Source of the DNA: Candidatus Aerophobetes bacterium Ae_b3b
Lineage (GTDB): Bacteria; Aerophobota; Aerophobia; Aerophobales; AE-B3A
Direction: 5' to 3'
Assembly (NCBI GenBank): GCA_005223085.1
Contig: NJBP01000086.1
Coordinates: 1 to 5,144 of the forward strand
Length of the DNA stretch: 5,144 nucleotides
This document shows, in pieces, positions 487-5,144 of this stretch. Every line of letters begins with the position of its first letter. Positions within the stretch are counted from its first letter, which is position 1. Position numbers and translations under genes: made by a program. The notes beneath the pieces were generated by a model, which had not been told where the DNA came from, made no database searches, and saw only the letters and a program-made list of their open reading frames with translations.

Positions 487-514
487 TTGACACCCCTTAG
501 TTTTGAGCTAAAAT
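487..514 (+). promoter_or_regulatory. Promoter of the HU gene
   Basis: A perfect -35 TTGACA (487-492), a 16-nt spacer (CCCCTTAGTTTTGAGC) and a -10 TAAAAT (509-514, 5/6) form a strong sigma-70-type promoter. The start of transcription should fall near 521, leaving a leader of about 38 nt. The -35, the spacer and the -10 match the oxidoreductase promoter at 4848-4875 in 25 of 28 positions. Spacer bases are normally not conserved, so this hints at a shared operator or a copied cassette. Confidence 0.75.
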
Positions 515-523
515 TATGAGTAA

Positions 524-539
524 ATTCTTCAATAACAAT
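524..539 (+). promoter_or_regulatory. Possible operator just downstream of the HU transcription start
   Basis: The block ATTCTTCAATAACAAT matches ATTGTTCAAGAACAAT, found at the same place in the oxidoreductase promoter (minus strand, 4839-4824), in 14 of 16 positions. In the oxidoreductase copy it is a perfect 7+2+7 palindrome; here 5 of the 7 arm pairs remain. It would lie at about +4 to +19, a classic repressor position. It is followed by AGGAGG at 546-551 and, 7 nt later, by the GTG of HU. Confidence 0.45.
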
Positions 540-558
540 CAAAACAGGAGGCATTGCC

Positions 559-831
559 GTGAACAAAGCAGAGTTAGTAGAGCAAGTAGCTAATCAGACA
601 GGGTTAACAAGGAAAGCATCTAGGGAAGCGGTTGATGCAATAGTCTCAGCTATAACCGACTCCCTGGTCAGAGAAGAAAAAGTTACTTTAGTCGGCTTTG
701 GCACTTTTCAGGTTATGGAAAGAAAGGCAAGAAAAGGAAGAAATCCACAGACAGGGCAGACTATTCAAATACCGGCTAAGAAAGTCCCCAAGTTCAAACC
801 AGGGCAAGGGCTAAGGGAGAAGGTGAAGTAA
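559..831 (+). CDS. hup: HU family nucleoid DNA-binding protein
   Basis: This is a small basic histone-like protein that binds and bends DNA as a dimer in the nucleoid. The 90-residue length is exactly that of the HU/IHF family. Helices fill the first 40 residues. They are followed by GFGTF (46-50), the family signature around ERKARKGRNP (54-63), and the DNA-gripping beta arm, whose RNPQTG tip (61-66) carries the conserved proline P63 that wedges between bases. The C-terminal PKFKPGQGLREKV is also typical. Translation starts at GTG, 7 nt after AGGAGG (546-551). The gene has its own strong promoter (487-514), and no terminator separates it from the omptin-like gene 58 bp downstream, so the two may be cotranscribed. 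HU rather than IHF is preferred because the sequence is generic HU, though the family cannot always be split by eye. Confidence 0.97.
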   Translation: MNKAELVEQVANQTGLTRKASREAVDAIVSAITDSLVREEKVTLVGFGTFQVMERKARKGRNPQTGQTIQIPAKKVPKFKPGQGLREKVK

Positions 832-3598: not shown

Positions 3599-4735
3599 TT
3601 AAATGACTTGACACGGGGGATACCCCAATTCTGGAAATGGAACCTCAATTCTTTTTCCACCGTTCATAGCTGATTCATGAGCACATATACCAGCCATTGT
3701 CCAGTTAGCCGCTGTAACAGCGTCACTAAAAGATTCCCTCTCTTCGACTATGGCACGTATAAACTCATGCGTCAGATGGGGATGTGAACCTCCATGTCCT
3801 GAACCCTGTACGAAGGATGTATGTTCATGTTCATCATCATACACTCCTCTTATTGTGTATGGTGCAATTTCTTTTGGCAAAAGGTGTCCGTAGTCCAGAA
3901 CTTCTATTCTCTTTGCATCTTCATATCCTGAATAAATAACAGACCCTTCACCTACAATCTGCTCCCATTCAAAGGAAAGCTTTGTGCCATATACGTCGAA
4001 GCTTTCTCTGTACTGTCTGATTGTGTCAAACAGCGACCTCGTGACCTCACATACAAGGTCGGAGTCGCGGAGTTTCAGATGAGCGGTTTCGATGGCGAAG
4101 GGAGAGTTGTACTTTTCGATATACTCTTTTCTGATTGTCCCGGAGCCATGGCACACCACAGACTCGACTTCCTTCTTAGCAAGCGCCAACAGGGGACTCA
4201 CCGCATGGGTTGCATAGTACATAGGAGGAAGGCCGTACCAGTACTTCGGCCAACCCGGCAGGCTCATGTTCTGCTGGTGAGAGCCTCTCAGGAACTGGAT
4301 CTTGCCTAGCTTCCCGGATTCAACCAGCTCTTTTGCATAGAGAAACTCTCTGGTATAGACGGCCGTCTCCATCATCATGTAGACCTTGCCTGACTTCTTG
4401 CGTGCCTTTACTATCTCAAGGCACTCTTCTTTCGTCGTCGCCATGGGGACTGTGCACGCAGTGTGTTTTCCGGCATTTAAGGAAGCCAAACTCATCCACG
4501 CGTGAGCGGCTACGGGGGTCACTACGTGGATCGCATCCAGCTCCTCGATCTCGAGAAGGTCTTCAAATTTCGTGAATCGTCTCTCTACCCCAAATTGGTC
4601 CCCTACCTCATTCAAATGACCTTCGCTTCTTTGGCATATTGCGTAGCATTCAGCATCGGGGTGTTTCTGATACAGGGGAACAAACTCCGCACCAAAACCG
4701 AGTCCAACCACTGCAACCTTCACTTTTTTGTTCAT
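3599..4735 (-). CDS. Gfo/Idh/MocA family oxidoreductase with variant TVP motif
   Basis: This is a predicted NAD(P)-dependent dehydrogenase of the glucose-fructose/inositol dehydrogenase family, cytoplasmic, probably acting on a sugar or cyclitol. Numbering from the preferred start, residues 4-17 (KVKVAVVGLGFGAE) form the first Rossmann strand with the GxGxxx dinucleotide loop. HVVTPVAAHAWMSLASLNAG at 70-89 is the usual second segment. The position of the family EKP motif reads TVP (95-97), so the lysine is replaced by valine. The C-terminal alpha/beta domain has YYATHAVSPLL (173-183), and GGSHPHLTHEFIRAIVE (315-331) followed by AANWTMAGICAHES is typical of the family. Length (378 aa) is normal. 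ATG 4735 is chosen because AGGAGG (4750-4745) precedes it and the Rossmann strand begins right after; an in-frame ATG at 4825 would add 30 unrelated residues. The 5' two-thirds looks GC-richer than the rest of the window. The exact substrate is unknown. Confidence 0.92.
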   Translation of the reverse strand: MNKKVKVAVVGLGFGAEFVPLYQKHPDAECYAICQRSEGHLNEVGDQFGVERRFTKFEDLLEIEELDAIHVVTPVAAHAWMSLASLNAGKHTACTVPMATTKEECLEIVKARKKSGKVYMMMETAVYTREFLYAKELVESGKLGKIQFLRGSHQQNMSLPGWPKYWYGLPPMYYATHAVSPLLALAKKEVESVVCHGSGTIRKEYIEKYNSPFAIETAHLKLRDSDLVCEVTRSLFDTIRQYRESFDVYGTKLSFEWEQIVGEGSVIYSGYEDAKRIEVLDYGHLLPKEIAPYTIRGVYDDEHEHTSFVQGSGHGGSHPHLTHEFIRAIVEERESFSDAVTAANWTMAGICAHESAMNGGKRIEVPFPELGYPPCQVI

Positions 4736-4805: not shown

Positions 4806-4823
4806 CGCATCACCTCCTCCAGC

Positions 4824-4839
4824 ATTGTTCTTGAACAAT
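4824..4839 (-). promoter_or_regulatory. Perfect palindromic operator candidate at the oxidoreductase transcription start
   Basis: On the minus strand ATTGTTC-AA-GAACAAT is a perfect 7+2+7 palindrome at about +3 to +18 of the predicted transcript. The position fits a repressor site. It is matched 14/16 by the block at 524-539 ahead of HU. As RNA it could instead form a 6-bp stem with a CAAG loop at the 5' end of the message. The cognate regulator is not identifiable; the RHH-like protein at 3146 is a possible but untested candidate. Confidence 0.55.
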
Positions 4840-4847
4840 TTGCCCTT

Positions 4848-4875
4848 ATGTTAGCTCAAAAATAAGAGGTGTCAA
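4848..4875 (-). promoter_or_regulatory. Promoter of the oxidoreductase gene
   Basis: On the minus strand there is a perfect -35 TTGACA (4875-4870), a 16-nt spacer CCTCTTATTTTTGAGC and a -10 TAACAT (4853-4848, 4/6). Transcription would start near 4841, giving a leader of about 106 nt to the ATG at 4735. The arrangement and sequence are nearly those of the HU promoter at 487-514. Confidence 0.7.
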
Positions 4876-5144
4876 AGAAGGCTTCGTGAGATTTCGTGTG
4901 AGATCAGGTGTAACAGGCTCGCTTGAGTGAACAAAAATTAAGAATCCGACTTACCGCAGACTAGGGTGAGCGAAACGCAAGCAGTGAGCTGAGAAGGAAT
5001 CATCCAGAACCCACCAGCAGACAAGTCTACACAGCCTAAGCCCCTCCCCAGAGCCTTCCAAGCGGATTGACAATGCTGAGATTTGGCTCAACTCATCCCT
5101 ATGTGATACGATTAGGGCGTCCTTGAGTAAGTGGTAGGTCCGGA
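4876..5144. other. Upstream intergenic stretch without a convincing gene
   Basis: Immediately upstream of the oxidoreductase -35 are two adjacent similar blocks, TTCGTGAGAT (4883-4892) and TTCGTGTGAGAT (4893-4904), which could bind an activator. One minus-strand frame is open from the window edge (5142) to TAA at 4953-4951, 63 codons beginning RTYHLLKDALIVSHRDELSQ. It could be the end of a gene entering from the right, but its later part (CRLVCWWVLDD onward) does not read like a known family and open frames of this length arise by chance. No tRNA or rRNA is seen. Confidence 0.3.

Follow-up and report, generated by a model that had tools for sequence, protein, structure and literature searches.

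The DNA analysed here is a stretch of 5,144 nucleotides, referred to below as the window, and constitutes the entire contig C34 of a 2.04-Mb draft genome in 86 contigs (G000), a MAG of Candidatus Aerophobetes. Three genes are recognisable in it through Pfam, encoding the DNA-binding protein HU, an omptin-family protein and a Gfo/Idh/MocA oxidoreductase. These genes and the elements around them are arranged as follows.

487 to 514, + strand: predicted class-1 promoter of the window HU gene (HU34), with TTGACA at 487-492, a 16-nt spacer and TAAAAT at 509-514; it matches the class pattern with 0 mismatches
524 to 539, + strand: leader block ATTCTTCAATAACAAT, HU copy, the operator-like block of an earlier sequence-only reading; dyad not significant
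546 to 551, + strand: ribosome-binding site (RBS) AGGAGG of HU, read in the sequence
559 to 831, + strand: HU (Bac_DNA_binding, Pfam 4.9e-36), 90 aa, starting with GTG; belongs to a set of several HU paralogs in the genome
890 to 1894, + strand: omptin-family outer-membrane protein (PF01278, Pfam 3.5e-12), RBS AAGGAGG
3599 to 4735, - strand: Gfo/Idh/MocA oxidoreductase (Pfam 9e-20), 378 aa, likely starting at ATG 4735
4813 to 4818, - strand: AGGAGG preceding a GTG at 4805-4803 that is not in the oxidoreductase frame
4824 to 4839, - strand: leader block ATTGTTCAAGAACAAT, oxidoreductase copy; dyad with 7-nt arms
4848 to 4875, - strand: predicted class-1 promoter upstream of the oxidoreductase (OX34), with TTGACA at 4875-4870 and TAACAT at 4853-4848
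5067 to 5086, + strand: degenerate copy of a second motif (motif 2), TTGACAATGCTGAGATTTGG, pointing away from the oxidoreductase

HU and the omptin-family gene are separated by a gap of 58 nt and are probably co-transcribed. An omptin-family outer-membrane protein directly 3' of HU is an unusual neighbour for it, and its motifs DSDW and RDDH resemble the omptin active site. The sequence immediately upstream of the HU -35 (471-495) also has a 72% inverted partial copy at 285-309, in opposite orientation.

The promoter of HU (TTGACACCCCTTAGTTTTGAGCTAAAAT) and that of the oxidoreductase (TTGACACCTCTTATTTTTGAGCTAACAT) are identical at 25 of 28 positions. An identical TTGACA, 14 of 16 spacer matches and 5 of 6 in the -10 had been read from the window by eye, and all are borne out in this match; the hand count of 43 in 53 that extended into the leader likewise comes close to the 83% over 54 nt of a gapped BLASTN comparison. 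Across 200 dinucleotide-shuffled versions of the window, the HU promoter was matched at 20/28 at best (mean 17), and the next-best site in the real window after the oxidoreductase copy matches at 16/28. An ungapped inverted repeat of 29 nt (90%) links the two promoters.

Could the two sites have converged independently on the usual strong promoter of this genome, without common descent? TTGACA and a mid-spacer T-run are common here: the T-run lies at the offset that is commonest among the genome's TTGACA-N16-TATAAT promoters (TTTT in 9/37), which makes the spacer identity between HU and the oxidoreductase generic in part. The argument that spacers do not converge must therefore be trimmed, in that the 25/28 match exceeds chance while the T-run is shared with ordinary promoters. 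Against convergence, a match of 25/28 with a leader that matches as well lies far beyond chance, and a C after TTGACA with a GC before the -10 sets the class apart from the TATAAT promoters (5/26 vs 0/37, p 0.009, a partly circular comparison). We consider such convergence very improbable.

The class to which both sites belong, class 1, can be written as TTTTTGACAC-N6-CTTTT-N2-GCTAARAT-AAGA; after it there is often a leader containing TTCTT/AAGAA. Elsewhere in the genome, a third close copy (C40:16145) lies 48 nt upstream of another HU gene (HU40) and has the same leader block; it matches the oxidoreductase copy at 87% over 53 nt (BLASTN). In simulations from the class column frequencies, the core match of HU34 to OX34 (29/40) has a p of about 0.03 and that of HU40 to OX34 (31/40) a p of 0.004, which makes the latter the closer pair. 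The likeness of HU34 to OX34 is thus mostly explained by class membership, the core being only modestly above expectation. Nevertheless, HU34, HU40 and OX34 also agree at variable spacer positions, an indication of recent common descent.

When nine HU cassettes, and not the oxidoreductase copy, were used to build a sequence-only profile, the profile recovered that copy at E 1.4e-6. Other targets of this profile in G000 are a CarboxypepD_reg/DUF2914 protein, a DUF4870 protein and unknown small membrane proteins; in relatives they include a rubrerythrin, an ABM monooxygenase, a zinc alcohol dehydrogenase, a PilT-like ATPase and others. In a genome of the same genus (G001), class-1 copies stand upstream of two intact HU genes and a truncated one, and in relatives the promoter also precedes further HU paralogs. 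Pattern searches (TTTTGACA-N8-TTTT-N3-CTA-N2-AT, at most 2 mismatches, with the reversed pattern as control) add an FMN reductase (C40:15236) and a rubredoxin/rubrerythrin pair in G007. The pattern outnumbers its control by 18:0 in G000, 9:0 in G001 and 23:0 in G002, with a smaller excess in other families of the order, and about 11 of the 18 sites in G000 were judged genuine class members by inspection (4 HU, the oxidoreductase and 6 others). As members were gathered by similarity, from incomplete draft genomes, part of the conservation of the class is ascertainment. The pairing of HU and the oxidoreductase is accordingly not a private one, and the earlier suggestion of a dispersed promoter element is upheld: the genome and its relatives have further copies, ahead of HU and of non-homologous genes and in some cases with surrounding homology, and the functions downstream are mixed.

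Like sigma70/sigmaA promoters, class-1 copies have TTGACA and TAARAT at a 16-nt spacing; the -35 and -10 hexamers lie within a spacing of 15-18 nt, and a gene with its RBS lies 3' of them. At least five intact sigma70-region-2 genes are present in the genome, so an alternative sigma factor may serve the class. Beyond the sigma70/sigmaA pattern, class 1 adds a T-run leading into TTGACA, C at +7, the mid-spacer CTTTT, GC before the -10 and AAGA after it. A terminator-like hairpin upstream was considered as a defining part of the class and rejected; it is clear in C71m, C65a, C65b, C40b, G001 C114 and C71 HU, and absent elsewhere. At several loci the T-run of such a hairpin runs into TTGACA (L062 near 1928, L210 near 2421, L282 near 9025 on the - strand, L064 near 1018, L289 near 307).

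A regulon offers another account of the shared sequence. Class-1 genes would share the operator of one regulator, either the leader block or a TTTTnAGCTnAAA-like dyad overlapping the -10, and selection would preserve both promoter and operator. The conserved columns of the class cluster in blocks that look functional (T-run, GCTA, AAGA) instead of spreading uniformly, two congeneric species both keep the class-1 promoter at the ABM gene, and a stress theme could accommodate rubrerythrin, rubredoxin, FMN reductase and HU. Leader dyads are also present in the oxidoreductase, C40 HU, G001 C52 HU and G005 C31 copies. The near-palindrome that had been described in both window copies holds for the oxidoreductase leader block (7-nt arms, p 0.003) but not for that of HU, where the symmetry test gave a 3-nt arm and no significant dyad (p 0.95). 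Spacing and dyad axis shift among the class-1 copies compared, and the leader block is absent at C76 HU and its G001 ortholog. No operator thus occupies the same place in all class-1 members, the leader dyad being absent or re-registered, and an operator palindrome was rejected as a feature of the class. The shared variable spacer positions of HU34, HU40 and OX34, with their indication of recent common descent, also speak against selection on an operator, and the downstream genes are mixed and some of them decayed. The single-repressor regulon once proposed for the two window genes finds no support, given the leader block missing from some promoters, the unconserved axis and the HU copy without a dyad. 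A class-wide regulon seems to us unlikely, and it is possible that a regulator reads the core promoter itself, at the -10 region or the spacer.

The gene starts had seemed to extend the resemblance, with AGGAGG 7 nt before a GTG in both places. This is literally so at both sites, but the second GTG (4805-4803) opens a 15-codon ORF (VPGASSGRCDYQLTK*) in a different frame from the oxidoreductase, so equal spacing from RBS to start is not a common feature of the two gene starts. The likely start of the oxidoreductase is ATG 4735, preceded by AGGAGGGTGAAAGGA with an AGGAGG of its own, and the homology to G002 begins there.

How the copies are related was traced through pairwise BLASTN blocks in promoter coordinates, with TTGACA at 0. 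HU paralogs share promoter and gene together, from -28 or -18 onward; the window HU and the C40 HU, for example, are homologous over -28 to 318. The HU34-OX34 and HU40-OX34 pairs, in contrast, are homologous only from -1 to about +52/53. Elsewhere the blocks are mosaic. The C36 copy of G001 is 100% identical to C53m over -7 to 29, with flanks not shared and unrelated downstream sequence, and over -69 to +38 it is 87% identical to C71m (the second C71 copy). A 179-nt block that matches the upstream side of G001 C36 at 95.5% stops within the -35 hexamer found 430 nt ahead of HU71, and a 97-nt block (91%) is shared upstream of different genes. Such mosaic blocks require common descent by DNA duplication rather than convergence.

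Multiple copies with mosaic flanks, and the 179-nt and 97-nt blocks upstream of different genes, would also suit a defined mobile element, MITE-like, of about 40-180 bp and with an outward promoter. Yet the blocks begin anywhere from -1 to beyond -200 and end between +4 and +107, with no common ends, nor were terminal inverted repeats reported in the window or an empty site found. The class-1 copies thus have neither the fixed ends nor the terminal inverted repeats of a MITE or small transposon, and we hold a defined element of this kind to be distinctly unlikely.

In an HU tree, the promoter-bearing HU genes are extra paralogs outside two widely shared ancestral HU groups, with modest to weak branch support; these two groups lack the class-1 promoter in the genomes compared. 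Detached HU 3' ends, comprising about the last 35-40 codons and the stop, occur in G000 directly behind other genes such as a cold-shock gene and a DUF4870 gene (L066 207-302 and 618-714, L217 4571-4700, L069 1488-1590), and similar ones occur in G002. They were weighed as a possible sign of HU-targeted integration. The regions from promoter to gene start (TTGACAACCACCGGGCTCTAC...) of L213 near 749 (C46) and L214 near 1820 (C59) are nearly identical, a recent duplication.

Among 16 relatives searched, a single close ortholog of the oxidoreductase was found, in G002, a member of another genus (87% amino acid identity). It aligns from the ATG on at 82% DNA identity. Upstream of it, the class-1 promoter was not found, and the flank cannot be aligned with the window; at 82% DNA identity a non-coding flank may have diverged beyond recognition, and a clean empty site was not seen. 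A 23-nt element related to motif 2 lies upstream of the oxidoreductase in both G000 and G002. Since the G002 ortholog is alike from the ATG on and lacks the class-1 promoter, the promoter at the oxidoreductase would most simply be a gain in the present lineage; with one ortholog compared, a loss in G002 is possible. The sequence-only reading had staked its case on conservation at orthologous genes and on other copies in the genome, and the outcome is divided: the promoter is absent at the G002 ortholog, but other genome copies exist.

Motif 2 itself, TTGACAAGTGCTGAGATTTGG-N2-TAnnnT with an N17 spacer, occurs 64 times in G002, 19 times in G005, 13 times in G000 and at most twice elsewhere, with 0 in the reversed controls. 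Read the other way it is TTGACA-N17-TAnnnT, and over 70 copies its spacer is nearly invariant with sharp edges. The copies form same-strand runs, 0.3-2 kb apart (for example on contigs C70, C127, C67 and C104 of G002 and C20, C53, C56 and C21 of G000). Genes of at least 100 aa with an RBS follow 15/55 sites in the promoter direction vs 4/55 in the opposite one, and about 16% of random positions. An integron-like cassette array, suggested by the same-strand runs, was set aside because the gene direction fits a promoter family better. The genes that follow encode, among others, an amidohydrolase, a homocysteine methyltransferase, Fe-ADH, HAD and radical SAM proteins, an ODP-family beta-lactamase-fold protein and an ApeA-type HEPN protein. 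Motif 2 therefore looks like a second, larger dispersed promoter-like family ahead of varied metabolic genes. On the opposite strand, a repeated protein C-terminus (...EIPIFDIPLQQRVRAR*) ends at several of its copies (L387, L388, L389, L393, L395).

We infer, as the probable explanation, that a lineage-specific family of sigma70-type promoters with their 5' leaders has a copy at each of the two window sites, and that this family spread along with HU duplications and through promoter capture. Class 1 would have spread in Aerophobetes mainly alongside repeated duplication of HU genes and would sometimes have moved without HU, landing upstream of unrelated genes; the oxidoreductase would have captured its copy in the present lineage, the transfer running from an HU-type copy to the oxidoreductase. 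Both window copies probably serve as ordinary strong promoters, each coupled to a strong RBS, one of them predicted to drive the HU-omptin operon and the other the oxidoreductase.

Two known situations come close to this. Putative mobile promoters, or promoter propagation (Matus-Garcia, Nijveen and van Passel 2012, cited in PMC9208149), as outlined in the citing text, likewise involve near-alike regulatory DNA ahead of non-homologous genes in the same genome and in relatives, as in the HU34-OX34 (83%/54 nt) and HU40-OX34 (87%/53 nt) pairs. Unlike them as outlined there, many class-1 copies travel with duplicated HU genes, and the copies are diverged (about 75-87%) and known from sequence comparison, in which no clean insertion was seen. 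Promoter capture, or horizontal regulatory transfer, resembles the case of the oxidoreductase, where one lineage differs by a recognisable promoter (G000 vs G002); here donor and event are putative, and the comparison covers one ortholog.

A wider idea, which we put forward tentatively and think rather more likely wrong than right, is that Aerophobetes has promoter families in which the spacer itself is the conserved element, class 1 and the motif-2 family being two of them. These could be global regulons specific to the phylum, with an operator embedded in the spacer, or else short promoter units able to spread by themselves and to plug into HU-rich gene arrays of fast turnover. The second, much larger family would make this question testable within one genome set. 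On our main reading the window would provide an example, from an uncultured phylum, of a promoter and leader that spread with a duplicating gene, HU, and were then adopted by unrelated genes. Promoter takeover of this kind would be a route to strong expression for new genes, and a common upstream sequence need not imply a common regulator.
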